Assembly (NCBI RefSeq): GCF_029581195.1
Contig: NZ_CP120737.1
Span: 1-64,000, forward strand
Direction: 5' to 3'
DNA length: 64,000 nt
Source of the DNA: Solwaraspora sp. WMMD791
Lineage (GTDB): Bacteria > Actinomycetota > Actinomycetes > Mycobacteriales > Micromonosporaceae
Shown here: positions 9,737 to 52,315 of the stretch, one piece after another
How positions within the stretch are numbered: the first letter of the stretch is position 1
Layout: every line of letters begins with the position of its first letter
Made by a program: the position numbers and the translations under genes
The notes under the pieces: generated by a model
The model's input: only the letters and a program-made list of their open reading frames with translations
The model's database searches: none
Told to the model about the DNA's origin: nothing

Positions 9737-9943
9737 AATCCGTACAACCGCCCAGTCCTCTTCCTTTGTTTTGCTAACACGCCCTCGGCGAGGGCGCGGG
9801 AACGGGCCATGCGGGCGAGGAACAGCGCGGCTAGATTAGGTTCTTGAGCAGGGCGCTGGTGGGCCGCTGGCGAGCTGCCCGCAGGGGTCACGGATCCTTT
9901 TCCACGGTCCCTCGACCGATCCACACACATTCAAAGGTCAGCG

Positions 9944-37322: not shown

Positions 37323-37535
37323 TTAGGCGGTGAAGCGTTCGCGGCTCGCTTCGCGTACGAAGGACTGCCAGTCCTCGGGGTTGATGCTCAGGACGGGGCC
37401 GGCAGGGTTCTTGCTGTCGCGGACGAGGACCTGCCCGGTCGTCGGGAGGAGGTTGGTGGCCACCTCCACGCAGTCGTTGCCGTTGCCGCTGCGGCTGGAC
37501 TTGCGCCACTGGGCACCGGTCTGGTCAGGCTTCAC
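37323..37535 (-). CDS. DUF397 small protein
   Basis: 70 residues with the DUF397 pattern: QWRKSSRSGNGNDCVEVA, VLVRDSKNPAGPVLSINPEDWQSFV. These small actinobacterial proteins are almost always encoded with an XRE/DUF5753 regulator, as here (11-bp overlap). In Streptomyces such pairs (for example BldB/WhiJ-type systems) affect development. A partner or modulator role for the adjacent regulator is likely. Confidence 0.9.
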   Translation of the reverse strand: MKPDQTGAQWRKSSRSGNGNDCVEVATNLLPTTGQVLVRDSKNPAGPVLSINPEDWQSFVREASRERFTA

Positions 37536-38430
37536 GGAGTGCCTCCAATGCAGAAGTGATCATGCTTCTCGACTCGTCCTCGTTGAGTGAGCGGCGGTCG
37601 ATGTCTTCCCAGACGAGCTGGTAGGTGCCGGACTCGCCGGGCTTGTTCAGGTAGAGCGCTCCGGTCAGGGTGTCGACGTAGGCAAGCGGCGGCTCCAGCG
37701 GTTCACCGCTCTGCGGGTCCGCCGGGAAGGTCAGCAGCGCGAACGGGGTGGATGCAGCCATGCCGCCGTGGACTCCGGCGGTGAACGGCAGCACCCGGAT
37801 GCTGATGTTGCCGCGCCGGGTCAGGTCGAGCAGGTGCTCGAACTGCTCGATCATCACCTCGCGCCCGCCCACGAGCCGGTGCAGCACGGCCTCGTTGAGG
37901 ATGACGCTGAGGTGTGGTGCGCGAGGGCGGGTGAGCAGCGACTGCCGCTCCATCCGAACCTCGACTCGTCGCCGTTTCTCCTCGTCATCGATGTAGTCGG
38001 TCGGCACTCCGTGAACTTCCTCGGCGTACCGCCGGGTCTGGAGCAGACCCGGGATCAGCTCGACCTCGTACTTCCGGATCGTCTCGGCAGAGTCCTCCAG
38101 CGAGACGTAGAGCGCGAAGAAGGCGGGCAGCTCGGTCTCGGTGCGGTCGTGCCACCAGGATTTCCGCCGCCCGTTGCGGGTCTCGGCGGTGAGCGCGAGG
38201 AGGATCCTCCCGTCCTCAGGCTCCGCGCCGTAGAGCTCCAGCATGGCCTTGACGTCGATGTCCCGGAAGCGAACGGCCTCGTGCCCGTCCTCCATGCGGG
38301 CGATCGTCGCGCGTCCCTTCTGGAGTGCGTCGGCCGCCTGCTCCTGGGTCAGGCCGGCGCGCCGTCGCAGCGCTTCGAGCCGCCGACCGACGTACCGACG
38401 CAACAGTGCAGAACCCACCATATCCGACAC
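37525..38430 (-). CDS. XRE-family regulator with DUF5753
   Basis: 301 residues. Residues ~12-65 form a Cro/CI helix-turn-helix (RRLEALRRRAGLTQEQAADALQ, ATIARMEDGHEAVRFRDID); the remainder is the DUF5753 domain (FFALYVSLEDSAETIRKYEVELIPGLLQTRRYA, HLSVILNEAVLHRLVGG, RVLPFTAGVHGG, FALLTFP, YVDTLTGALYLNKPGESGTYQLVWEDI). Pairs with the DUF397 gene. Starts at GTG 38430, with an in-frame ATG at 38421 as an alternative. Confidence 0.9.
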   Translation of the reverse strand: MSDMVGSALLRRYVGRRLEALRRRAGLTQEQAADALQKGRATIARMEDGHEAVRFRDIDVKAMLELYGAEPEDGRILLALTAETRNGRRKSWWHDRTETELPAFFALYVSLEDSAETIRKYEVELIPGLLQTRRYAEEVHGVPTDYIDDEEKRRRVEVRMERQSLLTRPRAPHLSVILNEAVLHRLVGGREVMIEQFEHLLDLTRRGNISIRVLPFTAGVHGGMAASTPFALLTFPADPQSGEPLEPPLAYVDTLTGALYLNKPGESGTYQLVWEDIDRRSLNEDESRSMITSALEALREA

Positions 38431-38974: not shown

Positions 38975-39304
38975 GTGATGCCACCACCCACCCCTGCCAC
39001 CGACCCGCACCAGCGCCGCCCCGACGACATCGCCGACGCGGCCACCTACCGCCCGTCCGACCGCGTGTGGGTATGGCCCCCGCACACCGACCAGTGGCGG
39101 CCCGGCGTCGTGGAAGCCAGGTCGAACCTTGCGGTGCTGGTGACCTACCAGCGTCCCGGCGGCGGGACCAGCGTCGACTCGCTACTCCCGCACAACGTCA
39201 TGGCCCGTACCGAGCCCGACGCCGACCTCGACGGCACCTCGTCCCTGCCGATCCGGATGCGCGACGTCCGCCCCGTCGTCGCCGGAGCCACCGCCTCGGC
39301 GTGA
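38975..39304 (+). CDS. Hypothetical protein with SH3-like region
   Basis: 109 residues. AAGGAGG lies just upstream of GTG 38975/ATG 38978. The middle portion (SDRVWVWPPHTDQWRPGVVEARSNLAVLVTY) is a short beta-barrel-like pattern, comparable in character to the N-terminal half of the gene at 2419. Ends with a polar tail. Unknown function; forward gene just upstream of the deazaguanine cluster. Confidence 0.6.
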   Translation: MMPPPTPATDPHQRRPDDIADAATYRPSDRVWVWPPHTDQWRPGVVEARSNLAVLVTYQRPGGGTSVDSLLPHNVMARTEPDADLDGTSSLPIRMRDVRPVVAGATASA

Positions 39305-39335
39305 CCAGCCAACTCTCGACGTGAAAGGGCTACGT

Positions 39336-39701
39336 ATGGACAGCGAGCTCCCAGCACAATCCGACATCCTCGACCACCCCGACTGGTGTGATCTCAGCGA
39401 GTGCACCGCCGCCGGCCCCAGTGAGTTCCACCCAGAGTCGTCGCCGCCCGCGCACTGGGGCCACCGGTATCCCTGCAACCCCCAGCCGGGGCGGTACCCG
39501 ACCGAGGTAGCGGTCCAGCTCGTCCGGTTCGTCGATGACCCGCCGAAGACCGACTTCATCCGGGTGGAGCTGGGCAGCTACGAGGAGCAGCGCTCACACT
39601 ACGTGCGCCTCGCCCAGGGCGCGGCGATGCGCGACGTACTGAACGTGCTCCTCGCGCAGGCGCAGACGGGTCGCGACGTGGCCCGCGAGTCGGGGGCGTG
39701 A
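39336..39701 (+). CDS. DUF6907-like protein
   Basis: 121 residues from the ATG at 39336 with GAAAGGG upstream. Contains the HPDWCDLSEC motif near residue 13, then HRYPCNPQPGRYPTEVAVQLVRFVDDP and a final LRLAQ-type helix (VRLAQGAAMRDVLNVLLAQAQ). The HPxWCDxxxC opening and beta-strand body fit DUF6907, small actinobacterial proteins often next to conflict or mobile genes. It is 4 nt upstream of folE, so may be the first gene of that unit. Confidence 0.6.
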   Translation: MDSELPAQSDILDHPDWCDLSECTAAGPSEFHPESSPPAHWGHRYPCNPQPGRYPTEVAVQLVRFVDDPPKTDFIRVELGSYEEQRSHYVRLAQGAAMRDVLNVLLAQAQTGRDVARESGA

Positions 39702-39705
39702 TCCG

Positions 39706-40290
39706 ATGCCCTCCGGCTCTGTCGACGTGGAGGCTGCGGAGCGTGCCGCCCAGCAGTTCCTGACGGAGCTGGGTATCACCTTGGACACCGACTCCAGGTC
39801 GCGCAGCGCGGCTCGGATGGTGGCGGCCTACCGGGAGTTGCTGGCCGGCCCGCAGTTCGTGCCGACGACCTTCGCGAACGACGCAGGGCACCGGGATCTG
39901 GTGCTGGCACGCGCGGTGCCGTTCGTGTCGCTGTGCGAGCACCACTTCTTGCCGTTCACCGGGGTCGCGCACGTTGGCTACCTCCCCGACGGCCGCATCC
40001 TCGGCCTGTCGAAGCTCGCTCGACTGGTGGAGATGTTCGCCCGGCGTCCGCAGGTCCAGGAGAGCCTCACCCAACAGATCGTGGGCTGGCTGTTCGAGGA
40101 GTTGAGCGCACGCGGTGCCGGGGCTGTCGTCGTCGCCGAGCACACCTGCATGACCCGCCGAGGTATCAGAGCGCACGGTGCGACAACCGTCAGCGTGGGA
40201 TGGCGCGGCACCCTCGCCGACGATCCGTCCGCGAGGGCAGAGTTCCTGACCCTTGCCGGAGTCGCGCTACTCGCGGGCGGCGCGCTGTGA
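39706..40290 (+). CDS. folE: GTP cyclohydrolase I (FolE)
   Basis: 194 residues. GTP cyclohydrolase I opens the guanine ring of GTP to give dihydroneopterin triphosphate, the first step to preQ0 (and folate). Zinc ligands and active-site residues are visible: SLCEHHFLPF at residues ~69-78 and EHTCMTRRG at ~146-154; GLSKLARLVEMFARRPQVQE is the family-typical helix. ATG/GTG start 4 nt after the previous gene. Together with the next three genes it gives a complete preQ0 pathway, so this copy is probably dedicated to the cluster rather than folate synthesis. Confidence 0.92.
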   Translation: MPSGSVDVEAAERAAQQFLTELGITLDTDSRSRSAARMVAAYRELLAGPQFVPTTFANDAGHRDLVLARAVPFVSLCEHHFLPFTGVAHVGYLPDGRILGLSKLARLVEMFARRPQVQESLTQQIVGWLFEELSARGAGAVVVAEHTCMTRRGIRAHGATTVSVGWRGTLADDPSARAEFLTLAGVALLAGGAL

Positions 40291-40500
40291 CCAACGGTCC
40301 CGCTCGCGAATCGCGACGTGATACGGAAGCGCCGCAGCTGATCAGCGCAATCGGTTGGTACGGGACGACATCGCGGCGGATATCGAGGCGGTCAAGCCGC
40401 CTATCGAATCCCACAGCCGTTGTAGCGGGTTCCGCACCTACAAGAGCTCACGAACGTACGGCAGACCTCACGCACGTTTCAGGTGACGCCAGGAGGGGCG

Positions 40501-41211
40501 ATGAGAAACGGACCTAGCGGGGCGAACGCGGGATCGCCAAGGAAAGTGGTACTGGTGCTTTCCGGCGGGTTGGACAGCACCGTACTCGCCCATCGCCTGC
40601 GGGCCGAGGGCTGCGACCTGACGATGCTGTCGTTCAACTATGGGCAGTCGCATCGCCGGGAGCTGGAGTTCGCCTACCGGACAGCCGCAAGCCTCGGAGG
40701 TGCCCACCGGATCGTCCAGCTCGGCGCGATCGCTGAGCTGCTCGCTGGGTCGTCGCTGACCGACCCAGCGGTGGCGATGCCCGACGGGCACTACTCCGAC
40801 TCCTCGATGAGGGCGACGGTCGTGTCGAACCGCAACGCGATCATGCTTGACGTGGCGGTGGCGCACGCGGTTGCCATCGGAGCCAACGCGGTGGCGTTCG
40901 GCGCTCACGCTGGCGATCATCCGATCTACCCGGACTGCCGGCCGAGCTTCGTCGCCGCCTACGAGCAGATGGTACGGGTGGCGAACGAGGGTTTCATCGA
41001 TTCGGACTTCGTGGTCCTCGCGCCGTTCATCAACGCCAGCAAATCGCAGATCGTGGCCGAAGGTGCCCGACTGGGGGTGCCGTTCGAGGACACCTGGTCG
41101 TGCTACCGGGGCGGCGCACGGCATTGCGGCAGGTGCGGGACCTGCGTCGAGCGCCGCGAGGCCTTCTTCGTCGCGAACGTGGCGGACCCGACCGAGTACG
41201 AGGTGCCGTAG
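40501..41211 (+). CDS. queC: 7-cyano-7-deazaguanine synthase (QueC)
   Basis: About 236 residues from the ATG at 40501 (AGGAGGGG 5-6 nt upstream). QueC converts 7-carboxy-7-deazaguanine to preQ0 with ATP and ammonia. PP-loop SGGLDSTVL near residue 20, LSFNYGQSHRREL, SSMRATVVSNRNAIML near 110, FGAHAGDHPIYPDCRP near 140 and a zinc site C-x(7)-CGRCGTC near 207-218. All catalytic features are present. A 210-nt gap separates it from folE; from here on the genes are coupled. Confidence 0.93.
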   Translation: MRNGPSGANAGSPRKVVLVLSGGLDSTVLAHRLRAEGCDLTMLSFNYGQSHRRELEFAYRTAASLGGAHRIVQLGAIAELLAGSSLTDPAVAMPDGHYSDSSMRATVVSNRNAIMLDVAVAHAVAIGANAVAFGAHAGDHPIYPDCRPSFVAAYEQMVRVANEGFIDSDFVVLAPFINASKSQIVAEGARLGVPFEDTWSCYRGGARHCGRCGTCVERREAFFVANVADPTEYEVP

Positions 41212-41595
41212 GTGTTCACGATCAGAAAGTCGTTCCGGTTCGAGGCGGCTCATCGGATCTCCGGTCTTCCCGCCGATCACAAGTGCGGGCGGCTGCACGG
41301 GCACAGCTACACCGTCGAGGTCGTTGTCAGCAGCTCCGATCTCGTGCCGCCGGGGTTCGTGGTGGACTTCGCCGACCTGGCCCCGCTCGGTGAGTACCTG
41401 GCCGCCACGTTCGACCATCGGGACCTGACGGAGGTGCTCGACGTCGCGCCGACGAGCGAGAACCTGGCGTGGTTTCTCTACGAGTGGTGTCAGGAGAACC
41501 TGCCCCTGCCCGGGACGGTGCAGCTGACGGCCGTCCGCGTCGGTGAGACCGCCTCGACATATGCGGAGTATGCCCCGGTGGACGGTCGGTCATGA
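41212..41595 (+). CDS. queD: 6-carboxytetrahydropterin synthase (QueD)
   Basis: 127 residues, GTG start directly after the queC stop. QueD converts dihydroneopterin triphosphate to 6-carboxytetrahydropterin. Zinc histidines in EAAHR and LHGHSY (residues ~13-37), catalytic Cys in KCGRLHGH, VDFADL and the PTSENLAWFLYEW helix are all seen. Acts between FolE and QueE in preQ0 formation. The coding end overlaps queE by 4 nt. Confidence 0.92.
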   Translation: MFTIRKSFRFEAAHRISGLPADHKCGRLHGHSYTVEVVVSSSDLVPPGFVVDFADLAPLGEYLAATFDHRDLTEVLDVAPTSENLAWFLYEWCQENLPLPGTVQLTAVRVGETASTYAEYAPVDGRS

Positions 41596-42293
41596 GCGCG
41601 GCGGCCGGCGGGCTGCTGGTGGCGGAGATGTTCGCAACGGTGCAGGGCGAGGGGCCGAGCTGCGGCCAGCAGGCGTTGTTCGTCCGGCTGTCGCGGTGCA
41701 ACCTGTCCTGCCCGTCGTGCGACACCCCGTACACCTGGGATTGGAGCCGGTTCGACCCGGCGCGTGAAGCGACGCGGCGTTCGACGGACGCCGTGCTGCG
41801 GTGGGTGCTGGACCAGCCGGCCCGGCTGGTGGTGGTCACCGGCGGAGAGCCGCTACTCCAGCAGGCCGAGCTGGTGCCGCTGCTCGCCGAGCTGGCTGCC
41901 GCCGGCCGGCGGGTGGAGGTGGAGACCAACGGCACGGTGGTGCCCGACCCGGCGGTGGCGGACCTGGTGGACTGGAACGTCTCGCCGAAGCTGGCGAGCT
42001 TCAGCGCCCCACGTGACCAGCTGCGCCGGACAGTCGGCGAGGCGTTGGAAGCGTTCGCGCGCACCGGCCGGGCGCGGTTCAAGTTCGTCGCGTCCGGACC
42101 GGCGGACCTTGACGAGATCGCAGGCCTGCAACAGCGGTTCGGACTGGACCCGGTCTGGGTGATGCCGGAAGGCACCGCAGCGGATCAAGTGCTGACCGGG
42201 CTGCAGGGCCTGGCCGACGAGGTGGTGCGGCGGGGATGGAACCTGACCTCGCGGCTGCACGTATTGGCGTGGGGTGACGTCCGTGGCCGATGA
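41592..42293 (+). CDS. queE: 7-carboxy-7-deazaguanine synthase (QueE)
   Basis: 233 residues. Radical SAM enzyme forming the 7-carboxy-7-deazaguanine ring. EMFATVQGEGPSCGQQALFVRLSRCNLSC begins with the QueE signature and leads into the CxxxCxxC cluster motif (C-N-L-S-C-P-S-C) near residues 36-43; VVTGGEPLLQQ and VEVETNGT follow, and VSPKLASFSAPRDQLR is the C-terminal substrate region. Overlaps queD upstream and the RT-like gene downstream. Confidence 0.92.
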   Translation: MSAAAGGLLVAEMFATVQGEGPSCGQQALFVRLSRCNLSCPSCDTPYTWDWSRFDPAREATRRSTDAVLRWVLDQPARLVVVTGGEPLLQQAELVPLLAELAAAGRRVEVETNGTVVPDPAVADLVDWNVSPKLASFSAPRDQLRRTVGEALEAFARTGRARFKFVASGPADLDEIAGLQQRFGLDPVWVMPEGTAADQVLTGLQGLADEVVRRGWNLTSRLHVLAWGDVRGR

Positions 42294-43248
42294 CTCGACC
42301 CATCACGAGGGCGAAGGGCCTGGACGGGGCCGTCGTTCCCGGCCCCATCGGCCGCGCGTGTCGGGTAGCGGCTCGGGTGACGCTGTGGGGGGCGGGATCG
42401 TTCCTGCCGTCCAGGCTGGATCGAGCGTACCGGATTCGGCCCTCGCGGCGCACTCCCTGATGTCGTACCTCGTCAATCCGGTCCATCTGGTCGCGGCGGC
42501 CCGCGCCTGTATGCGGCGGGCATCGGCACCCGGTGTCGACGGGATGACCTGGGCGGCGTACCGGGTGGGTCTACGGGACCGGCTCGCGGACCTGGCTGAG
42601 CGTCTCCGCGTCGGCTCCTGGCAGCCGGCTCCGCTGCGGCAGGTGTGGATTCCGAGCTACACCGGCAAGACCTTCCCGGCGGCGATCCCGACAGCGGAGG
42701 ACCGGATCGTGCACCGGGCGATGCGCGACGCCCTCACTCCGATCATGGAAGCAAGGGTGCTGGCCGGCTGGGTGTCGGGATACCGGGCCGGCCGTAACCG
42801 GATCACCTCGGTACGGCAGGCCGACCAGCACCGGCGAGCGGGAAGGCGATGGGTCGCGGACATTGACGTTGCCGGCGCCTCACAGGGCGGCACCGTCGAC
42901 GAGTTGGTCGGCTGGCTCGCCGTACACGTGAAAGACGGTGCGTTCCTGGCACGGTTCCGCCGCGCCCTGGACGCCCTGCCTACCCCGATGATGCCCGGCA
43001 GCGGCCTGTGGCCGGTGGTGTTCCACCTGCGGCTGGCACAGGCAGATGCGCAGCTCGACGGCCTGTCAGTGGTGCGCTTCGCGGACAACTACGCCGCGCT
43101 CGCACCCGACCGCCGAGGTGCGGCCATCGCGTACGAGCGGATCGGCTACGCGCTCGCGGCGATAGGGCTCGCCCCGAACGTGCGCAAGAGCCGAATCCGG
43201 CCACCGCATCTGGCGCATCCCGAAGACCTGTTCCTGATCGATGGATGA
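42274..43248 (+). CDS. Truncated reverse-transcriptase-like protein with FADN box
   Basis: 324 residues, GTG 42274 (or 42283), overlapping queE. After a basic low-complexity 50 residues it has RT features: PGVDG (86-90, as in group II-type RTs), GSWQPAPLRQVWIPSYTGKTF and PTAEDRIVHRAM (motifs 1-2, ~114-150), WVADIDVAG (193-201, motif 3 with Asp but without the usual F-F-D), PMMPGSGLWPVVFHLRL (motif 4), VVRFADNYAALAP with F269-A-D-N272 replacing Y-A-D-D (motif 5) and GLAPNVRKSR (motif 6). It ends at motif 7: no thumb or maturase domain. The third catalytic Asp is Asn, so polymerase activity is doubtful; a nucleic-acid-binding or altered role is possible. Confidence 0.8.
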   Translation: MTSVADDSTHHEGEGPGRGRRSRPHRPRVSGSGSGDAVGGGIVPAVQAGSSVPDSALAAHSLMSYLVNPVHLVAAARACMRRASAPGVDGMTWAAYRVGLRDRLADLAERLRVGSWQPAPLRQVWIPSYTGKTFPAAIPTAEDRIVHRAMRDALTPIMEARVLAGWVSGYRAGRNRITSVRQADQHRRAGRRWVADIDVAGASQGGTVDELVGWLAVHVKDGAFLARFRRALDALPTPMMPGSGLWPVVFHLRLAQADAQLDGLSVVRFADNYAALAPDRRGAAIAYERIGYALAAIGLAPNVRKSRIRPPHLAHPEDLFLIDG

Positions 43249-43258
43249 CGGGAGAGAC

Positions 43259-43879
43259 ATGCACAGCACCGGCACCACGCGGACCGCCAACGCGGACGAT
43301 AAGGCTGGGCGGGCGTCGCCACTGCGGTGGCTACCCGTTCCCGGCGGCAGCGGCCGGTTCGGGGACGCGGCCCGGAAACGTACGGTGATCGACCTCCTCG
43401 TAGCGGCCACCCCGTTGACGTACCGGCACCTGAACCGGGCCGATGAGACGACGGACCCGGACCGGCCGGTCGTCGAGGTCGACCATGCCCAGGCCGTCCG
43501 GCTCGCCGCCGACGTGGGCGGACGGCTGCCCACCTCGACCGAGTGGGAATGGATCGCAGGCGGCCAGCAGCGACGGACCTGGCCGTGGGGCGACGACGCA
43601 TGGCGGCCGGACCTCGCCCGACTCCGCGGCACGGAGGTCGAACACACCCGGTGCGGCCCGGTCGGTGCACATCCGGCCGGGGCGACCCCGGAGGGCCTAC
43701 TCGACCTGGCCGGCAACTGCTGGGAGTGGACGTCAACACCAACCATGGGGCACGGGTACGTGATCAGAGGCGGCTCCTACGCCTCACCGCCGTTGTACGC
43801 CCGCTGCACGTTCCTCAACGCCGTGCACGCCGAGTGCCGCAGCGCGGGAATCGGCGTACGCCCGGTGAGGCCAGCATGA
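43259..43879 (+). CDS. FGE-sulfatase-fold protein lacking catalytic cysteines
   Basis: About 206 residues from the ATG at 43259 with GGAGAG upstream. FGE/SUMF1-type (C-type-lectin-related) fold: WLPVPGGSGRFG, GGRLPTSTEWEWIAGGQQRRTWPWGDD, PAGATPEGLLDLAGNCWEW, RGGSY and IGVRPVR. The family normally has the formylglycine-generating pair of cysteines just after GGSY; here this stretch is ASPPLYARC, so both aligned positions are lost and sulfatase-activating activity is unlikely. The position beside an RT gene recalls diversity-generating retroelements, whose target proteins use the same fold, but no template repeat is seen. Confidence 0.82.
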   Translation: MHSTGTTRTANADDKAGRASPLRWLPVPGGSGRFGDAARKRTVIDLLVAATPLTYRHLNRADETTDPDRPVVEVDHAQAVRLAADVGGRLPTSTEWEWIAGGQQRRTWPWGDDAWRPDLARLRGTEVEHTRCGPVGAHPAGATPEGLLDLAGNCWEWTSTPTMGHGYVIRGGSYASPPLYARCTFLNAVHAECRSAGIGVRPVRPA

Positions 43880-44340
43880 ACCACAAACTTGCGCTGCCGG
43901 TCAGCGACGGTCTTGTCCTCGTCGGCTGCTCGAAGGAGAAGTCAGCCACCCGCCGTGCGTTGGCCGCGTTCGATCTCTACGACGGCGGCTGCATCCCGCC
44001 GATGCGTGCCAGGCTCGGCTACTGGCCGCACCGCGACCGGGTCCGCTTCCTCAGTGCCGAACACGGACTCGTGCACGCCGAGACCCCTTTGCACACCTAT
44101 GACCGGCCGCTCGATCCACACCGTGCCGTCGAGTTGCGGCCCCGGGTAGCGGCAGCACTGACCGCCGAGTTCGACGCCGCCGGCGTGCCGGACGAGATCC
44201 TCGTCGTCGCCGAACCGCTGTACCTGGTCCTGCTCGCCGACCTGCTCGCCCACCCGGCACGTCCCCGCATCCATTGGATTCCCGATCACGCTTCCGGGTG
44301 GCCCGACGCCGCCCGTGTCCTCGACACCTGGGGGTGGTGA
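43876..44340 (+). CDS. DUF6884-like protein
   Basis: 154 residues; ATG overlaps the previous stop. VLVGCSKEK near residue 16, AAFDLYDGGCIPPMRARLGYWPHRDRVRFLSAEHGLVHAETPLHTYDRPL: the order G-C-S-x-x-K, L-Y, S-A-x-x-G-L-V, Y-D-x-x-L is the DUF6884 pattern. It is loosely like the PCSxxKPY domain that accompanies archaeosine-type tRNA transglycosylases, an interesting parallel given the preQ0 genes, but similarity of this kind could be superficial. Function unknown. Confidence 0.65.
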   Translation: MNHKLALPVSDGLVLVGCSKEKSATRRALAAFDLYDGGCIPPMRARLGYWPHRDRVRFLSAEHGLVHAETPLHTYDRPLDPHRAVELRPRVAAALTAEFDAAGVPDEILVVAEPLYLVLLADLLAHPARPRIHWIPDHASGWPDAARVLDTWGW

Positions 44341-44342
44341 CC

Positions 44343-45374
44343 ATGCCGACCCTGGCCCAGATGCTGGCCGCCAGCGACAACGACCACACCGACCTGACCG
44401 CAGCGTTCACCGCCCGTACCGGGCTGGGCTGGCACGACCCGACACCAGCAGCGATGGCAGCGGGGACCGTGCTGTCGGTGGTGATCCCCGCACACAACAA
44501 CGCCTACAGCCTGCCCGCCGTGCTCGACGCACTCGCGAAACAGGACACCTCCGGAACCGTCCAAGTCATCGTGATCGACGACGCCTCCACCGACGACACC
44601 CCGGCCATCATCCGACTGCACCCCGCTGTCGACACCGCCTACCGGCTGCCCGTACAGGTGGGTGGCGCCACCGCCCGCAACGTCGGCACCCACCTCGCCG
44701 ACGCCGACACCATCGTCCACCTCGACGCCGACATGGTGCTGACCGCCCACGCCCTCGCCGACATCGCCGTACGGGCCCACCCCAGCCTCGTCCAGGTCGG
44801 ATTCCGGCACAACATCGCCTACCAGCCCGGCCGCTACCTGCGGGCCGAGGTCCCCGACGGGGAACCGGACCTGCACGCTGACCACCGCGTCCGGTGGAGC
44901 CCACCAGTCGGCAAACCCATGTTCTACACCGGCGACGTCTACCACCAACCGATGGACCTGCGCCCGCTCGACGACACCCACGACTTCGTCGATCTCGGCC
45001 ACGGCGCCCGCTACTTCGACTGGGACCTGCCGAGGATGGTCGTCACCGCCCTGGTCGCCATGCCCCGCGCAGCCGTCACCCACGTCGGCGGATTCGACCC
45101 CGGATGGACCGCCGCCGGCTGGGGAGCCGAGGACACCCACCTCGGCGCGACGCTGATCGCCGCCGGCTGCAAGATCACACCCCTGCGTCAGCTCCGCGCC
45201 TGGCACATCGACGCACCCGACGCCGCAATCCAGTGGCGCGCGAAGCTGGCCAGCGTCCCAGCGCGCATCGCCTACTACCGGCATCTCCTCGGCGAGCCCG
45301 CCCCCGCCCGGCGAGAAGCCGACCTCGCCTCCCGGGCACAGGCCCTGCTCGCGCATGCGGAGGTGCTGCGGTGA
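44343..45374 (+). CDS. Family 2 glycosyltransferase
   Basis: 343 residues. GT-A fold: VLSVVIPAHNNAYSLPAVLDAL, QVIVIDDASTDDT, GGATARNVGTHLADADTIVHLDADM (DxD) and, near residue 265, GWTAAGWGAEDTHLG, the GWGxED motif of the chondroitin-polymerase/galactosyltransferase C-terminal domain. Nucleotide-sugar dependent. Starts at ATG 44343 (an overlapping GTG at 44337 is an alternative). Candidate to glycosylate the deazaguanine product or a protein target. Confidence 0.88.
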   Translation: MPTLAQMLAASDNDHTDLTAAFTARTGLGWHDPTPAAMAAGTVLSVVIPAHNNAYSLPAVLDALAKQDTSGTVQVIVIDDASTDDTPAIIRLHPAVDTAYRLPVQVGGATARNVGTHLADADTIVHLDADMVLTAHALADIAVRAHPSLVQVGFRHNIAYQPGRYLRAEVPDGEPDLHADHRVRWSPPVGKPMFYTGDVYHQPMDLRPLDDTHDFVDLGHGARYFDWDLPRMVVTALVAMPRAAVTHVGGFDPGWTAAGWGAEDTHLGATLIAAGCKITPLRQLRAWHIDAPDAAIQWRAKLASVPARIAYYRHLLGEPAPARREADLASRAQALLAHAEVLR

Positions 45375-46306
45375 CCTCTCGTGTGTACGGCGTCGATGGC
45401 CACCTCGCCCACGACCCGGCGACCGGACTGACCCACCACGCCCCACACCCGCTACCCACAGGCAGATGGAGCGGAGACCCGGCCGAGGTCAACCGCTGGC
45501 CGGTCGTCGCCCCCGACCAGCACGCCCGATCCCAACCAGCCAGCATCTGCTGGTCACCAATCGTCCGCTGCAACCTGCACTGCCCACACTGCCTCGACGA
45601 CACCAGCGTCCGCGAACTGAGCCCCGCCGACCGCAACCGCATCGCCCAGATCCTCGCCAGCAGCGACATCCTCGGCGTCGACATCAGCGGCGGCGAACCG
45701 CTGCTCCTCAAAGACCTACCCGACCTGGTCCGCACCGTCACCACCGGCGGACGCGCCGCAGTGTCGATCACCACCAACGGCACCCACCTGCAACGCCGCG
45801 TCCCGCACCTCGCAGGCGTCGTCGACGCCATCCGGGTCTCCCTCGACGGAGCAACCGAGGCCACCCACGACCGGCTACGCGGCACCGGCAGCTTCACCCA
45901 CGCCATCACCGGAATCCGCGCCGCCGTCCAGACCGGCGTCTGCGTCCAGATCCAGACCGTGCTGATGGTCACCAACCAGCCTGAGACCCAACGCATGATC
46001 GACCTCGCCCACGACCTCGGCGTCAACGGCCTGACCCTGCTCCAGATGCTGCCCATCGGCGCTGGACTGCACCAACAAAACCAGATGCTCACCGACGTCG
46101 CCGCACTCGACCACGTGCACCGCCTACACATCCCGGACCCCCTGCGCGTCCGGCTCCGCACCCGCGAACTCGCGGGCGGATTCACCATCGTCCGCGCCGA
46201 CGGACGCATCTGGCGCAACGACCAGCGCGGCCTCACCATCGCCGGACTGAAGCCGCTGACCACCCCCGCCGACCTCACCCTCACCGCGAAGGACGGATCC
46301 GCATGA
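45371..46306 (+). CDS. Radical SAM enzyme
   Basis: About 311 residues, GTG overlapping the previous stop. SPIVRCNLHCPHCLDD has CxxxCxxC (C-N-L-H-C-P-H-C, near residue 63-70), followed by ILGVDISGGEPLLLKDL, AVSITTNGTHL, IRVSLDGATEATHDRLRGTGSFTHAI. These are typical radical SAM motifs. There is no Cys-rich SPASM/auxiliary-cluster C-terminus. Substrate unknown; the location between two glycosyl-type genes suggests a sugar or nucleoside modification. Confidence 0.88.
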   Translation: MTSRVYGVDGHLAHDPATGLTHHAPHPLPTGRWSGDPAEVNRWPVVAPDQHARSQPASICWSPIVRCNLHCPHCLDDTSVRELSPADRNRIAQILASSDILGVDISGGEPLLLKDLPDLVRTVTTGGRAAVSITTNGTHLQRRVPHLAGVVDAIRVSLDGATEATHDRLRGTGSFTHAITGIRAAVQTGVCVQIQTVLMVTNQPETQRMIDLAHDLGVNGLTLLQMLPIGAGLHQQNQMLTDVAALDHVHRLHIPDPLRVRLRTRELAGGFTIVRADGRIWRNDQRGLTIAGLKPLTTPADLTLTAKDGSA

Positions 46307-46872
46307 CCAGCCCCACCGCCCAGCGCACCTTCACCCACCGCCGCGTCCTACGGCTCACCGCCGACGCCTACGAGCAGGCCGTCAACCTCCTCGCCCGCGA
46401 AGTGACCAACCGGATCGGACCCATCGAGGCGATCATCGGCATCGCCAACGGCGGCGTACCCCTGTCCCACAGCCTCGCCGGACGCCTCGACGCCCGAGTA
46501 CTGCGGGTCGACGCCCAACACAACCCCACCGACACGATCTACACCCAGGCCACCGGCCACGTCACCCTCGACCTGCGGCCACTCACCACCGTGCTCCGCG
46601 ACACCCGCCTCGTCGGCAACGTCCTGCTCGTCGACGACATCTGCGGCACCGGCGCGACCATCGACGCGCTCTACCCGAGACTGATCCCGTACCTCTGGGC
46701 AGGATCAGTCGTCCACACCGCCGTCCTGTGCCGCAACACCGGAGCCGACTACAACCCCCACCTGTGGATCTGGGACACCGACGACTGGGTGCACTTCCCC
46801 TGGGAAGCGCCCCTCCCGGGCACCACGCCCGTCGAAGACCTCGCCGTCCCCGACACCGCGCAACACCGATGA
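46303..46872 (+). CDS. Phosphoribosyltransferase
   Basis: 189 residues, ATGA overlap with the previous gene. PRT type I fold with AIIGIANGGVPLSHSLAGRL near 47-65 and the PRPP-binding loop VLLVDDICGTGATIDAL near 108-124. These transfer a ribose-5-phosphate to a base. In the toyocamycin-type deazapurine antibiotic pathways a phosphoribosyltransferase attaches PRPP to the preQ0-derived base, so this enzyme may have that role; that is inference. Confidence 0.85.
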   Translation: MTSPTAQRTFTHRRVLRLTADAYEQAVNLLAREVTNRIGPIEAIIGIANGGVPLSHSLAGRLDARVLRVDAQHNPTDTIYTQATGHVTLDLRPLTTVLRDTRLVGNVLLVDDICGTGATIDALYPRLIPYLWAGSVVHTAVLCRNTGADYNPHLWIWDTDDWVHFPWEAPLPGTTPVEDLAVPDTAQHR

Positions 46873-47969
46873 CGACCGTCGCCTTCATCCTCGCCTCCTG
46901 GCGACCCGACGCCCCCGCCGGAATGGAACGCGCCGTCGCCGGCACCGTCACCGGTCTCACCGCCAGCGGCCACCGTGCCGTCATCATCACCGCCGACCGC
47001 ACCGCCCCACCCCGCTACGCCGCCGCACCCGTCGTCACCCTCGACAACCTGCGCATTCCGCACCCCTGCGACGACGACAGCCTGCGCCACGCCATCACCG
47101 CCGCCGAAACGCCGATCCGCGCCGAGCTGACCAGGACGTTCGCCGCACACCAGGTCGAGATCGCCGTGTACGTCGACAGCCTTTGGGGACTCGGCCGGGT
47201 CATGCCCACCACCGACACGCCCCGCCGGATCCTCTGCATGCACGTCGTCGGCCATAAAACCGACCTGGCCGCCGCCCTGCCCCGAGCCCACACCGTCATC
47301 GCCCCCTCCGACATCGTCCTGCGACGCGCCACCGCCAACGGCTACGACACCTCCTGCTGGCGAGTCGTCCCGAACCCTCTGCTCACCGATCAGCCGCCAG
47401 CATCGGAATTCCGCCGCCGTCTACTACGCAGGGAGGGTCCGATCCGCGTCGTCGCACGCCTGGGCCCGGAGAAGGGCGTCACGCAACTGCTCGCTCTTGC
47501 GAGCGATCGCCCGTCCGGATACGCCGTCGAGATCGCCCTGGCCGCTGCCGGGTTCGAGGTCTCCACCGGGGGCCAATCGCAGCTGCTTAGTGAAGCGCGG
47601 CGTCTCGCCGCCGGAGCCGGAGTGCAGCTCCGGCCAGGTCTGCGATGGGCCGAGGTGTCCGCCTGGCTCGCCGCCGCCAGCGTCTGCATCGTGCCTTCCC
47701 TGGCCGAGACGTTCGGCCTGGTTGCCCTCGAAGCAATGTCCGTCGGCACCCCCGTGATCGCCCTCGACGTCGACCACCTCCCGACGCTCATCGGCGATGG
47801 TGGCGTCATCGTTAGGCAGGCCAGCGGCCACGCCGGGCTGTGGCGCGCCGCCGACCAGCTCCTGCACGACCCGGTACGCTACGAACGCATCTCCAGGGTC
47901 GGCTACTACCGCGCGCGGGACTATCGACCCGCCCACATCGCTGGCCAACTCCTGAAGGTGGTGAGCTGA
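46869..47969 (+). CDS. Family 4 glycosyltransferase
   Basis: 366 residues, ATGA overlap. GT-B fold: N-terminal FILASWRPDAPAGMERAVAGTVTGL, and a C-terminal nucleotide-sugar domain with VVARLGPEKGVTQLLAL and AAASVCIVPSLAETFGLVALEAMSVGTPVIAL, the E-x(7)-E motif of GT4 enzymes. Second glycosyltransferase of the cluster; together with PIG-L next door it resembles the sugar-transfer/deacetylation order of mycothiol synthesis. Confidence 0.88.
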   Translation: MTTVAFILASWRPDAPAGMERAVAGTVTGLTASGHRAVIITADRTAPPRYAAAPVVTLDNLRIPHPCDDDSLRHAITAAETPIRAELTRTFAAHQVEIAVYVDSLWGLGRVMPTTDTPRRILCMHVVGHKTDLAAALPRAHTVIAPSDIVLRRATANGYDTSCWRVVPNPLLTDQPPASEFRRRLLRREGPIRVVARLGPEKGVTQLLALASDRPSGYAVEIALAAAGFEVSTGGQSQLLSEARRLAAGAGVQLRPGLRWAEVSAWLAAASVCIVPSLAETFGLVALEAMSVGTPVIALDVDHLPTLIGDGGVIVRQASGHAGLWRAADQLLHDPVRYERISRVGYYRARDYRPAHIAGQLLKVVS

Positions 47970-48865
47970 TGGGCGGTCGCCCCATGCAGCCAACGCTCCC
48001 GATCCCCGCCGGCACCACAGCCGCCCCGCCGCTGCTGCTCGTCGACGGACACAACCTCCTATGGGGAGCCACCTTCGGCTTCCCCGCACCCATCTACTCC
48101 CGCGACAAGACCCGCCTGCTCACCGGACTGTTCGCCTTCTTCGCCCTCCTACGGGTCGCGATCCGCAACGAGATCCCCGGCGGCAGCCCCGAAGTCATCG
48201 TCGTCTGGGACGGCGAACACGGCTCGCAGGCACGCCAGCAGGAACACGATGGGTACAAGGCCAGCCGACCCACCGACGACGACGCCCTTCTACCGTTGCG
48301 GTTCCTCTCCGACGTCAAGCGGGGACTCGACAGCTGCGACATCGGCTGGATCGAGCTCGAACACGCCGAAGCCGACGACGTCATCGCCACCCTCGTCCAC
48401 GCCACGCCTGCCCCGCGATCCGTGATCGTCATGTCCCGCGACCGGGACTACTACCAACTCATCACCGACCGCGTACACGTCCTCAACACCCGCTTCCGCG
48501 CCGGCCACCGGCTAGTCACCCCCGACGAGGTGTACGCCCGCCACCAAGTCACCCCCGACCAATGGGCCGACTTCCGAGCCCTGGCCGGCGACCCCGCCGA
48601 CGAGATACCCGGCGTCCACGGCATCGGCGCCAAAACCGCCGCACGACTCCTCGACGGCGGACTCCACCTGGAGGACCTCACCGCCTCCGGACGGCTCGCC
48701 ACCGGCCGCGGCCGAACCGTCGCCGAGCAGTACGACCTCGCCCTCAAATGGCGCGACCTCATCCGACTCACCACCACCCTCGACCTGCCCCACCACCCAA
48801 CCGGCAAACCCAGCCCCGCACTACCCCGACCAGCCGACGTCGTTGAGGAACTCGTACTGTGGTAG
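47969..48865 (+). CDS. 5'-3' exonuclease (FEN-type)
   Basis: 298 residues, ATG overlaps the previous TGA. PIN-like nuclease core: LLLVDGHNLLWGATFGFP, VIVVWDGEHGSQARQQEHDGYK, WIELEHAEADDVIATLVHA, VIVMSRDRDYYQLI, then the helix-3-turn-helix DNA-binding motif LAGDPADEIPGVHGIGAKTAARLL near 210-233. This is the fold of DNA polymerase I 5'-nucleases and T5-type exonucleases. A dedicated nucleic-acid enzyme inside a base-biosynthesis operon is unusual. Confidence 0.88.
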   Translation: MGGRPMQPTLPIPAGTTAAPPLLLVDGHNLLWGATFGFPAPIYSRDKTRLLTGLFAFFALLRVAIRNEIPGGSPEVIVVWDGEHGSQARQQEHDGYKASRPTDDDALLPLRFLSDVKRGLDSCDIGWIELEHAEADDVIATLVHATPAPRSVIVMSRDRDYYQLITDRVHVLNTRFRAGHRLVTPDEVYARHQVTPDQWADFRALAGDPADEIPGVHGIGAKTAARLLDGGLHLEDLTASGRLATGRGRTVAEQYDLALKWRDLIRLTTTLDLPHHPTGKPSPALPRPADVVEELVLW

Positions 48866-49494
48866 CCACCCCCACCGGCGGAATCCTCACCGTCATGGCC
48901 CACCCCGACGACGCCGAACTCTGGGCCGGCGGAACCCTCGCCGTGCACGCCGCCACCGGCGTACCCGTCACCATCGCGGTCCCCGGCCTCAACCCGACCC
49001 GGCGTCGGGAAGCCGTCGCCGGCGCCCGAATCCTCGGCGCGACACCGCACCTACTCGACGCCATCACCGTAGACACGGTGCGGGAACTTCTCGTCGGCGT
49101 TCAGCCCGACGTCGTCATGACCCACAGTCCCGACGACATCCACCCCGACCACCAACATGCGGCGCAGACGCTGCTCACCGCGCTACCCGACGTTGTCATC
49201 AGCACCGGCAGACCCCGCGCCGTCTACACCTGCGACAGCTACCACAACCTCAACCGCCACGGACACCCACTGCACCTGCCCACCATCATCGACATCACCT
49301 CTGCCTGGCGGACCAAGACCACCGCGCTCGCCGTCCACCAGTCCCAGCCCATCACCGAACACTTCGGGCCCATGGCCGTCACCCTGGCCCGCCTCCACGG
49401 CGGACGCGCCGGCGTTCGGTACGCCGAAGCCTTCGCCCCCGTCCCTGTGCTCGGCAGGCTCCCCATCACCCCACTCGCCCAAAAGGGCATCTAA
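48859..49494 (+). CDS. PIG-L family deacetylase
   Basis: 211 residues. VMAHPDDAELWAGGTLA at residues ~11-27 contains the HPDD zinc motif and HSPDDIHPDHQHAA near 95-108 the HxxH motif. PIG-L enzymes remove acetyl from N-acetylglucosaminyl-type substrates (mycothiol, bacillithiol, teicoplanin-like pathways). GTG overlap with the exonuclease gene. Last gene of the cluster; a sugar deacetylation step after the glycosyltransferases fits. Confidence 0.88.
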   Translation: MVATPTGGILTVMAHPDDAELWAGGTLAVHAATGVPVTIAVPGLNPTRRREAVAGARILGATPHLLDAITVDTVRELLVGVQPDVVMTHSPDDIHPDHQHAAQTLLTALPDVVISTGRPRAVYTCDSYHNLNRHGHPLHLPTIIDITSAWRTKTTALAVHQSQPITEHFGPMAVTLARLHGGRAGVRYAEAFAPVPVLGRLPITPLAQKGI

Positions 49495-49578
49495 ACCTGT
49501 ACTCCGACCTAATCTGCGACAGGACTATGCCAACCCGAACGACACAAACGGAAAGAGCTCGCACTAGGCAAAATCCGG

Positions 49579-50769
49579 GTGGTGAGCGTGGCATCCCAGC
49601 GCCTAGGCGGTGATGGGGAGGCCGGACTGGCGGCTGAGATGGTCATGTGCTGCACGAAGCCGTCAGCGCTTGTGGACTCTGCGCGCTTCATGCAGCGCGG
49701 GGTAGCCATTGACACGGTTGATATAGTTGCTAACGGATATGCGGGTAATCCGCCCGATCGGTTGTATCGCACGAAGCTCGCGTTTCCTGCTACCCTGACC
49801 GCGTCTGTCAGCGTGATGCTGTTGCTGGTTGCAGCGTGTGAGCCATCAACCTCAGGGTGGTCTGCGTTCCGGTGGTTCCCCGTTGCAGACATTGGCTCAG
49901 CACTGCTGACGACAGGCCTCATCATGATCGTGTTCGAGTACCTTGATCGCAGGGACGCTGAAGAGCGAGCGACCCAACGCGTGCGCCAGGTCCTCAACCG
50001 GGAGGCGCCGGCACGCCGAAAAAACGCCGTGGTTGACTGCTCCACCTTCGAGCCGAAGGCCTTGGCGCAGCTTGCTTCTGCGGAGAGCCTCGACAGGACC
50101 ATCCGGAACTGCCTGACTGTCGGACCAGGCGACAGTGACCTTGCTGCGGACCTCTACGGGGACCTCCGTTCGCAGGTGGTGTGTGCAACTGAACGGTGGC
50201 GCGGCCTGCACATGTCGGTGGTGCTTAGCCCATGGAAGGGTGGACCTGTATCGGGCAAGGGGGCGATGTTGGTTGCTTCCGCGAGGTACGAGTATCGGGT
50301 GGTGTCGACGTCTGCTGCCATGCGCTTCGTGAGCGTGTCTGATGACGCCGTCCATCGACGGCTCCTGCACGACGCAACCCTCGCAAAAGCCTGGCACTTC
50401 CGGCCTGTCGGCTGCCTCAATGGCTCATCACCTGAGGCCTTCCAGCTTGTTCAACTGATCGTAGATGGCTGTGCGCCCCCTGTGTGGCGCTTGGCATCGG
50501 GAAGTGCGCAGAGTTACATGGCAGGCCCTGGAGGTGGCCTAATTTCCGAGAGACCCTTGAGCAAGATCACCGACACTTACCAGTCGGTGGGGCAACGAAG
50601 CGGACACTTGTTTCAAGTAGACATTGTGCAGGCCAAACGTGGTGTAGCCGTTAGTTTCTGGTACGGAGGACGCGGCTTCCCGACGCGTGACGTCTTGGAT
50701 TGCATTGCCAGTGGCAGGCAGCGGTGCAGCGCAGCCGGCGTAGCCTGGCCTCACCCTCGGTCACCGTGA
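49579..50769 (+). CDS. Two-TM protein with unknown soluble domain
   Basis: 396 residues. Two membrane segments near residues 73-90 (TLTASVSVMLLLVAA) and 103-122 (DIGSALLTTGLIMIVFEYL), then a basic amphipathic stretch (RRDAEERATQRVRQVLNREAP) and a ~270-residue soluble domain that I do not recognise (AVVDCSTFEPKALAQLASAES, WRGLHMSVVLSPWKG, FYGG-type ending VSFWYGGRGFPTRD). Codon use is less GC-biased than the preceding cluster. Start at GTG or later ATG; the given start is the earliest in-frame one. Likely accessory. Confidence 0.55.
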   Translation: MVSVASQRLGGDGEAGLAAEMVMCCTKPSALVDSARFMQRGVAIDTVDIVANGYAGNPPDRLYRTKLAFPATLTASVSVMLLLVAACEPSTSGWSAFRWFPVADIGSALLTTGLIMIVFEYLDRRDAEERATQRVRQVLNREAPARRKNAVVDCSTFEPKALAQLASAESLDRTIRNCLTVGPGDSDLAADLYGDLRSQVVCATERWRGLHMSVVLSPWKGGPVSGKGAMLVASARYEYRVVSTSAAMRFVSVSDDAVHRRLLHDATLAKAWHFRPVGCLNGSSPEAFQLVQLIVDGCAPPVWRLASGSAQSYMAGPGGGLISERPLSKITDTYQSVGQRSGHLFQVDIVQAKRGVAVSFWYGGRGFPTRDVLDCIASGRQRCSAAGVAWPHPRSP

Positions 50770-51091
50770 GTTTTCACGGATGGGCTTCACCCAAGTCGGG
50801 CGTAGCTTTCGCCTGGATGCTCGATGGGGACATGGTCGAACCTCGACCTGCGGTTGTCCGGGAGGATGCGGCTTGAACCTGGTAGTTCATCGATCCGTTA
50901 CAAGGAGTGCGGACTCTGGGTGCATACGTGAAGGTCTGTTTGGGTATTGTGCAGATGCACATGCAGCCTCCGCTCTGGCGGGACCGGAGGTGCCTTGTGC
51001 TTGCGGAGGGTGATTTTGTCGTACCGGCAGAGTATCGTTACCGTCACCAAGCCGTAGTAGGCCGACTACCAGAAGTGATGGCTGGGGCGCA
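50770..51091 (+). other. Region before the ImmA/IrrE gene
   Basis: About 320 bases with no firm gene. One forward frame, 50907-51098, encodes 63 residues (DFVVPAEYRYRHQAVVGRLP near the end) that overlaps the start of the peptidase gene; the pattern looks protein-like but the ribosome-binding site is poorly placed. It is mentioned here at low confidence rather than called as a gene. Confidence 0.35.
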
Positions 51092-52294
51092 GTGGTAGGG
51101 ATGGGTCAGGTCGAGAGGTTGCCGGAGTGGTCTAGGCGCTTGCGTGAAGCGCTTACCGCGGGCTGCCCACGGCCAGTCGAAGATCTATACGAGCAGCTCG
51201 GGCTGCCTGCGGACGGTGGCTGGCTAGCTGATGCACTGGAGGGACGCGTGGCCCCTCGCCGCCACCAGCTGGCGGAGTTGTCGGTCTGTAGCGGTGTCTC
51301 TCTTGCTGTGCTCGTGGGTGATGTGCCGGTGAATAACGTAGCCAGGGTTCTCCGCTCCAGCGCGAGTGTGCTGGAGGAGGATATCCAAGCGGCCTGCCGC
51401 CGGGCCGAGGACGCGCTTGAAGACTTGAAGCTCTTGCTGGCTTGGTATCCGCAGGAAGCGATTCGTACAAGCGAGGCCGCAGACTATGCACGTCGTGCTG
51501 TCGCGACCGGTTCGTTCGCCAAAGGCGTGGCTGCTCAAACTGCTGAGCGGCTACGTGATCTGCTTGACCTGGATGACGAAGAGCCCGTTGGCGATATTGC
51601 CGAGCTTATCGAAAATCTCGGTGCAGCTGTCATATTCGAGCCTCTGCCTGAACCTATTCAAGGCGTAACCGTGCGAGATCTATCGCAGGATTCTTGGCAG
51701 GCTGTTGTGCTGGTGAACAGTACTACCTGGTGGGGTCGGCAGCGGTATACCTTAGCTCATGAGCTATGCCATATTCTCTATCGAGACAGCCATGGTGTCT
51801 TCGTGAATCGCAAGGACGATGAGGATATGGATGATGCTGAGATCAGGGCTGAGTCGTTTGCTCGACACTTTCTTGCTCCGGATTTGGCCGTTCGGGAATT
51901 CTGGTCGGAGCATGCGCCAAGAGGGGTTTACGACACGTACGGCGTTGCTCTCGCAAAGTTCATGATGCATTTCGGACTTAGTCGTCGCGCTAGCGTGCGC
52001 ACTCTAGTCGAGGTTGCGGATGTTCCCGAAGAAGCCATGGGGCCGTATACGAGAACGGGCGCTCGAATTGAGACTATAATGCGCGAGGCGGGGCTTGAGG
52101 AGCAGTGGAACCGGGAGTGCGCGACGCAGCATGCCCGTGGTGCCTCGAACTGGTGTCTCTCGATGGCCCTCGACGCCTACCGGCAGAGTCTGGTTGGAGT
52201 TCCGACTGTTGCGAGAGTGCTTGGTCGTTCAACGGAGCTGGTAGAGGTCGAGCGCGAGCTGTGTGAGCAGGGCTATCGGCCTACACCACGGTGA
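51092..52294 (+). CDS. ImmA/IrrE-type metallopeptidase with N-terminal HTH-like region
   Basis: 400 residues. Zinc peptidase motif HELCH in RYTLAHELCHILYRD near residue 230, with the second acidic ligand expected in ESFARHFLAPDLAVREF. The N-terminal ~80 residues (LYEQLGLPADGGWLADALEGR, LAELSVCSGVSLAVLVG) look like a helix-turn-helix. ImmA-type peptidases cleave repressors to release mobile-element or toxin genes. It converges on a PIN-type gene. GC content is lower than the main cluster. Confidence 0.8.
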   Translation: MVGMGQVERLPEWSRRLREALTAGCPRPVEDLYEQLGLPADGGWLADALEGRVAPRRHQLAELSVCSGVSLAVLVGDVPVNNVARVLRSSASVLEEDIQAACRRAEDALEDLKLLLAWYPQEAIRTSEAADYARRAVATGSFAKGVAAQTAERLRDLLDLDDEEPVGDIAELIENLGAAVIFEPLPEPIQGVTVRDLSQDSWQAVVLVNSTTWWGRQRYTLAHELCHILYRDSHGVFVNRKDDEDMDDAEIRAESFARHFLAPDLAVREFWSEHAPRGVYDTYGVALAKFMMHFGLSRRASVRTLVEVADVPEEAMGPYTRTGARIETIMREAGLEEQWNRECATQHARGASNWCLSMALDAYRQSLVGVPTVARVLGRSTELVEVERELCEQGYRPTPR

Positions 52295-52315
52295 TCCTCT
52301 GCGTGCGGCGGAGGG

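Follow-up and report, generated by a model that had tools for sequence, protein, structure and literature searches.

The first 64,000 nucleotides of contig NZ_CP120737.1 of Solwaraspora sp. WMMD791 (the window; the genome is a single contig of 6.93 Mb) carry thirteen same-strand genes, at 39706-49494 (+), which bring together the genes for preQ0 synthesis, a reverse transcriptase-like (RT-like) protein, an FGE-fold protein, sugar enzymes and a nuclease. As a whole, this cluster is conserved far beyond chance: it is present at all 22 distinct loci found for the RT-like family, all of them in actinobacteria, among them distantly related soil lineages. Its genes are under purifying selection, the active site of the RT-like protein is uniformly changed, and TGT is absent from almost all of the tested genomes that carry it. 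preQ0 is known to end up in tRNA bases, in dpd-type DNA bases and in deazapurine nucleosides. The present operon is conserved, has no transglycosylase and includes an invariant altered RT together with a 5' nuclease, which points to yet another use. We lean slightly towards a pathway that needs no TGT and yields a glycosylated deazaguanine nucleoside or nucleotide; the RT-like protein and the FEN-type nuclease would be integral parts of it.

Gene content and conservation of the cluster

An earlier note, made from the letters alone, had described a coupled thirteen-gene cluster at this position, and Pfam placed all thirteen families there on one strand, in the order folE, queC, queD, queE, RT-like, FGE-fold, DUF6884, GT2, radical SAM, phosphoribosyltransferase (PRT), GT4, FEN-type and PIG-L. 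Ten of the twelve junctions overlap by 1 to 20 nt, queC and queD abut, and 192 nt separate folE from queC. The overlaps downstream of queE were thus confirmed, but nine genes follow queE, not the eight of that note. Start positions were corrected for DUF6884 (43876), GT2 (44337) and FEN (47969).

39706..40290, +, FolE, GTP cyclohydrolase I (PF01227 GTP_cyclohydroI, 1.1e-52)
40483..41211, +, QueC, preQ0 synthase (PF06508, 1.9e-58; sole QueC match in the window genome, G000)
41212..41595, +, QueD, 6-carboxytetrahydropterin synthase (PF01242 PTPS, 1.7e-29)
41592..42293, +, QueE, 7-carboxy-7-deazaguanine synthase, radical SAM (PF04055, 3.6e-10; top NCBIfam matches are QueE models, under their cut-offs)
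42274..43248, +, RT-like protein, group II RT fingers-palm without thumb; D198-D271-N272, S203
43241..43879, +, FGE/C-type-lectin-fold protein (PF03781 FGE-sulfatase, 6.5e-21)
43876..44340, +, DUF6884 (YaaA/DpdC-type) protein (PF21818, 8.7e-9)
44337..45374, +, GT2 glycosyltransferase (PF00535, 1.8e-16)
45371..46306, +, radical SAM protein, MoaA-like (PF04055, 1.7e-16; MoaA models 1.7e-26, under cut-off)
46303..46872, +, type I PRT (PF00156 Pribosyltran, 4.3e-12)
46869..47969, +, GT4 glycosyltransferase (PF00534 Glycos_transf_1, 8.2e-19)
47969..48865, +, FEN-type 5' nuclease (PF02739 5_3_exonuc_N, 2.3e-26, and PF01367, 1.2e-15)
48859..49494, +, PIG-L (LmbE) family deacetylase (PF02585, 1.4e-11)

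No Rfam family reached its gathering score in the window. No internal gap longer than 90 nt was common to the 17 loci measured; therefore, the operon shows no obvious non-coding RNA partner.

The RT-like family was searched for in 61 relatives, 396 genomes of the phylum, 7 of the genus and 300 of the family, and in plasmids. The contigs of 84,980 species were also searched by peptide pattern, which gave 57 stretches and 10 loci. Removal of duplicates (L026 equals L024, L027 equals L095 and L028 equals L097) left the 22 distinct loci, which fall into two architectures. Type A, that of the window, accounts for 17 loci (one partly seen) in several genera and families, with the order queC-queD-queE-RT-FGE-DUF6884-GT2-rSAM-PRT-GT4-FEN-PIGL (rSAM, radical SAM). 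Ten loci besides the window have the full thirteen genes in this order, five lack only an adjacent folE, and one is cut by a contig edge (L029, which begins inside the RT gene, its upstream genes lying outside the view). Type B comprises the other five loci, from genome G003, Nocardiopsis chromatogenes, Streptomyces radicis, S. pinistramenti and Embleya. Here WbqC (called by Pfam for three loci and by similarity for the others) and a second GT4 take the place of GT2 and radical SAM, and the gene order is altered.

Both architectures share the same core. FGE, DUF6884, GT4, FEN and a PIG-L gene were each found at 22 of 22 loci, the FGE gene of L034 being split over two frames, and PRT at 21 of 22. 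The preQ0 module is complete in the window. Of its genes, queC, queD and queE are present at all 21 evaluable loci; folE is adjacent in 15 of these 21, and none was seen beside L030, L031, L032, L033, L100 and L101. Against two near relatives, 24 of 26 gene comparisons gave a measurable ratio of non-synonymous to synonymous substitutions (dN/dS), and all lay between 0.10 and 0.39. Among seven partners compared, GT4 and FEN track the RT-like protein most closely, with pairwise-distance correlations of 0.92 and 0.91 over 210 pairs, to which shared host phylogeny contributes.

The distribution is patchy. Within the Micromonosporaceae, the cluster was found in 14 of 300 genomes and 9 of 44 genera, which suggests horizontal spread of the operon in actinobacteria. 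In the phylum sample, where up to five candidates per genome were scored, 50 of 396 genomes matched the RT-like protein at 1e-15; a family-level score (521 bits) was seen in the window's own genome only, the runner-up reaching 143.7 bits in a 496-aa frame. The RT-like protein matched 660 plasmid records: that of Embleya at 44% identity, the next nine listed at 28-32%. For the radical SAM protein, plasmids gave no close relative, with best matches at 25-31%.

The host genomes do not offer a known user of preQ0. TGT (PF01702) is present in 14 of 14 control genomes and absent from 11 of 12 cluster genomes; the lone match, in G004, has a second queC at 4-5 kb and is separated from the cluster by about 1.1 Mb. 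PF01702 likewise revealed no DpdA, a TGT paralogue, in these 11 of 12 genomes, although a DpdA too divergent for this model would escape it. Thus, neither queuosine nor the known dpd route explains the cluster. Outside the cluster region, full-length QueC was found in only 2 of 14 genomes (G004 and G535). G003 has a second full-length QueC in an adjoining cassette, and G024 and G003 show weak partial QueC matches elsewhere. In the window genome, the QueC and DUF6884 proteins of the cluster are the only matches of their kinds. The earlier note had expected co-occurrence across actinobacteria, with RT-like and FEN genes persisting in the relatives, and a role apart from tRNA queuosine and dpd; all three expectations agree with these data. 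As the RT-like protein served to find the loci, it is FEN and the remaining genes that carry the test of persistence.

The RT-like protein and its partners

The RT-like protein has the fold of group II intron reverse transcriptases. It scores below the cut-offs of both Pfam RVT_1 (6e-6, 26.5 bits against 29.6) and TIGR04416, a group II RT model (6e-29), and a profile search of the PDB retrieves group II RTs (5hhj at 5e-38). The AlphaFold model (mean pLDDT 80, with residues 1-58 under 50) matches maturase RT domains and one full-length group II RT, with query TM values of 0.66-0.71 among the first 24 PDB matches. At 324 aa, the chain stops after the palm: 264 of the 417 residues of the full-length RT 6ar1 are aligned, and the fold comparison shows that the thumb and maturase domain of group II RTs are absent.

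Active-site positions were compared between 21 members (Embleya left out) and 47 controls, RT matches outside the family that came from the same searches and represent 44 loci and 44 different sequences. The motif-A aspartate D198 is kept in all members and in 47 of 47 controls, and the first aspartate of YxDD, D271, in all members and in 41 of 41 aligned controls (six have gaps). The second aspartate of YADD is asparagine (N272) in 21 of 21 members, and aspartate in the 41 aligned controls of the 47; the intact YxDD catalytic pair of active reverse transcriptases is thus missing. The motif-A phenylalanine of all 47 controls, the usual sugar gate of RTs, is replaced by serine (19 members) or threonine (2), and position 147 is histidine instead of the glutamine of 42 of 47 controls. 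D196 was also considered as the catalytic motif-A residue and was dropped, being valine in L096 and aspartate in only 31 of 47 controls. A tree that includes 41 control rows groups the family in one clade (support 100/99). The clade sits on a long branch (1.14) and contains types A and B as subclades of their own; according to a warning of the program, a long control branch meets it.

Between close relatives, dN/dS of the RT-like gene is 0.13 and 0.22. Together with the uniform active-site changes, these low values suggest a protein that is altered but maintained, and not decaying. GDN and ADN motifs work in some viral RNA polymerases. Given this and the change at the sugar-gate position, the RT-like protein may still have activity despite its D-D-N triad. 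The likeness to group II intron RTs extends to the fold and to motifs that can be aligned through YxDD and the following lysine. The differences are the missing thumb and maturase domain, D-D-N in place of D-D-D, and an occurrence only beside preQ0 genes. Matches were found in 11 phage records, all below 60% identity. Outside the RT-like family, four same-genus genomes (L070, L071, L072 and L073) share a near-identical canonical (YADD) RT open reading frame (ORF), of 336 aa in three of them.

The FEN protein has ten Asp/Glu positions that are identical in 21 of 21 members. Its identity to two homologues in the host is only 33-34%, the host match of PolI length being at 33%. At the G003 locus, an Rv2179c-like 3'-5' exonuclease gene (L025:7017-7574) directly follows FEN, so that polymerase-like, 5' and 3' nuclease parts stand together.

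In DUF6884, residues C19, K23, S61, A62 and G65 are invariant in 15 of 15 sequences and make up the motifs CxxxK and (L)SAxxG, in which the leucine varies; Pfam's paper names CxxxK and SAxxG for this family. Its fold search returned, with weak scores, nitrogenase, AF0587 (2q07), Pelota and uracil-DNA-glycosylase-type entries in the first rows.

FGE is marked by copper-binding cysteines and EgtB by a DinB iron domain. The FGE-fold protein (212 aa) fits neither: the candidate C-terminal FGE cysteine is present in 11 of 20 aligned sequences and is threonine or serine in nine, and the FGE domain is its only match, with no DinB domain. Its dN/dS is 0.19-0.20. The radical SAM protein scored 59.6 bits against the viperin model NF038283, far from the cut-off of 180, and 1e-21 against the PADLOC viperin model.

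A PADLOC scan of 10 of the 13 proteins found no complete known defence system. It related the RT-like protein to generic RT, Cas1-RT, homing-endonuclease and weak DRT models, the radical SAM protein to viperin models and DUF6884 to the candidate PDC-M57A, besides a few weaker matches. All seven proteins given to PHROGs matched some phage family, weakly to moderately, including DUF6884 (phrog_5935, 2e-7), the RT-like protein (phrog_1423) and FEN (phrog_107). A viral origin was considered and rejected: viral contigs held no relative, and DUF6884 had no match in phage records at 1e-5.

A proposed pathway and its alternatives

In the pathway that we favour, FolE, QueD, QueE and QueC would build preQ0, and PRT would join it to phosphoribosyl pyrophosphate (PRPP). 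DUF6884 would then convert the 7-cyano group to the amide by hydration, the reaction that DpdC performs on dPreQ0. GT4 would add an N-acetylated sugar, to be deacetylated by PIG-L, and the final steps would be performed by GT2 and radical SAM in type A, or by WbqC and the second GT4 in type B. The RT-like protein, in this reading a changed polymerase or nucleotidyltransferase and not a normal reverse transcriptase, would act with FEN to make or clear a form that is nucleotidyl or linked to nucleic acid. All chemistry beyond preQ0 is inferred, as is an end product of the specialised-metabolite kind. In favour of the pathway count the constancy of the gene set, the scarcity of TGT and of QueC outside the cluster region, the patchy distribution, the correlated distances, the dN/dS values, the DpdC link of DUF6884, and the DegT, Gfo/Idh and permease-family genes near some loci.

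Several points weigh against this pathway. No product is known, and a small-molecule pathway alone leaves the RT-fold protein and the FEN nuclease unaccounted for. The conserved core of the loci compared contains no transporter, which is odd for a secreted antibiotic, although 5 of 13 loci have permease genes nearby. The Embleya locus (L103) has no PRT at its place, with its DUF6884 gene intact. The link of DUF6884 to nitrile hydration passes through a domain label. DUF6884 is listed as the DpdC domain in the GATOR-GC preprint (PMC11888242). In a BREX paper (PMC12839542), DpdC, which hydrolyses dPreQ0 to dADG, is placed in the related PF03883 (DUF328), not in DUF6884. The DUF6884 fold search, for its part, gave no match at E<=0.001.

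A bolder reading, which we regard as rather doubtful, is that the RT-fold protein has been domesticated as a polymerase of ribo- or modified nucleotides or as a nucleotidyltransferase that works on deazaguanine nucleotides, so that deazaguanine enters a nucleic acid or an oligonucleotide-like metabolite by polymerisation instead of base exchange. If true, this would be, as far as we know, the first case of an RT being recruited for biosynthesis.

The earlier note took the cluster for the source of a glycosylated nucleotide or nucleic-acid modification, or for a defence system built on it, all of them candidate readings of the gene families. In a modification system for DNA or RNA, the RT-like protein would insert a deazaguanine nucleotide without base exchange, FEN would clear flaps, DUF6884 would act in place and the glycosyltransferases would decorate, for self-marking or anti-phage defence. 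This is possible, and on balance unlikely. The presence of three proteins of nucleic-acid type (RT-like, FEN and DUF6884) at every locus, their PHROGs matches, the ten invariant acidic positions of FEN, the retention of D198 and D271, the lack of a core transporter and the scarcity of TGT are all consistent with it. However, Pfam detects no restriction effector, helicase or methyltransferase among the thirteen proteins; the RT-like protein has lost the thumb and the second YADD aspartate; the loci come from actinobacteria only in the data searched; phage records hold no DUF6884 match at the threshold given above; and permease genes lie near 5 of 13 loci. We give still less credence to an ordinary deazapurine nucleoside antibiotic cluster, with RT-like and FEN serving self-resistance or repair against the analogue in the producer's DNA. 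Its patchy occurrence in antibiotic-rich families would fit, and so would the pairing of preQ0 genes with a glycosyltransferase that yields huimycin, or the preQ0 genes behind toyocamycin and tubercidin. The latter two pathways also include a phosphoribosyl step. But the low identity of FEN to its host homologues argues against a recent resistant duplicate, and resistance genes would hardly stay invariant over both architectures while tailoring genes change.

A relic diversity-generating retroelement (DGR) is very improbable. The RT and FGE genes overlap by 8 nt in the window, DGR RT structures are among the fold matches, and the FGE/C-type lectin fold is the usual DGR target. However, no template/variable repeat pair was found at 39000-51000 among the largest 20 of at least 60 repeat families, the FGE gene is under purifying selection, the RT motifs are changed, and RT and FGE are not adjacent in type B. 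As for a chance neighbourhood of unrelated metabolic genes, the transposase genes flanking the region could have suggested it, but it is refuted by 17 loci (one partly seen) of several genera and families that share the gene order, and its probability is negligible.

Comparison with known systems places the preQ0 module within a familiar kind. The FolE, QueD, QueE, QueC module also belongs to the toyocamycin/sangivamycin, tubercidin and huimycin clusters, and in huimycin a glycosyltransferase follows the preQ0 genes, in part as here. The accessible descriptions of deazapurine nucleoside clusters name no RT-like, FEN, FGE-fold, DUF6884 or PIG-L protein, and the huimycin methyltransferase and the TubF decarboxylase have no counterpart among the thirteen genes by Pfam. 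The dpd islands often have preQ0 genes nearby and a DUF6884/YaaA-type DpdC; the cluster has a protein with the DUF6884 domain, but neither DpdB nor restriction genes among the thirteen, nor TGT/DpdA in 11 of 12 genomes. GT4, PIG-L deacetylase and phosphoribosyltransferase occur together in aminoglycoside pathways of the butirosin/neomycin type, whose aminocyclitol genes are missing from the thirteen by Pfam. No description of the thirteen-gene set, or of such a pathway with an RT-fold protein as a constant part, was found in searches of an open-access library that lacks most subscription papers. The operon suggests that an RT-fold protein can serve elsewhere than in retroelements and known defence, and it forms a compact target for heterologous expression and new nucleoside chemistry.

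Flanking genes and local variants

Three further genes precede folE in the window:

37525..38430, -, XRE/DUF5753 regulator, divergent, a possible neighbour regulator outside the core (Pfam DUF5753, 8e-55)
38975..39304, +, small protein without Pfam match; related ORF in 4 of 21 loci (window, L021, L022 and L025)
39321..39701, +, small protein without Pfam match (p39321); 65% identity in L025, where its counterpart heads an extra cassette

XRE/DUF5753-related ORFs flank 6 of the 21 loci compared, window included, at varying distances. In the window, a DDE_3 transposase gene lies upstream of the cluster, and IS21-type genes are found on its downstream side. On the folE side, 2-5 kb beyond the cluster, 5 of the 13 loci with listed flanks have genes of the amino-acid-permease family (L023:2-901, L028:3534-5021, L099:15373-16995, L027:1937-3442 and L096:15986-17392), with GNAT-type neighbours in three. 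At L030, DegT and Gfo/Idh genes follow PIG-L (Pfam), and related Gfo/Idh-type ORFs lie near L031 and L032. A Gfo/Idh identity for an ORF of L102 was dropped, being unsupported by Pfam; at this locus an APH-family phosphotransferase gene (L102:2063-2908) stands just 3' of PIG-L on the same strand.

In the window itself, 51092-52726 carries an ImmA/IrrE-type (M78) gene and after it a small convergent ORF that has no Pfam match; the two may form a toxin-antitoxin-like pair. A 1203-aa WD40-repeat protein is encoded upstream of the cluster (32200-35811), with related ORFs near the cluster in L021 and L022. Local variants were also seen within the cluster. Two overlapping transposase-like ORFs, named by eye, lie between queC and queD in Micromonospora lupini (L027:7879-8782). 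G648 has an insert of about 1.2 kb between DUF6884 and GT2 and, alone among the aligned members, valine at RT position 196 (L096:7165-8385 and 9466-10398). The FGE match over two frames in Streptomyces radicis (L034:8400-8919) suggests a frameshift or a sequencing error. Finally, in G003 a second, divergent p39321-queC-GT2-rSAM-PRT cassette (L025:1-4205) lies about 3.4 kb from the type-B cluster and looks like a partial type-A set retained beside it.

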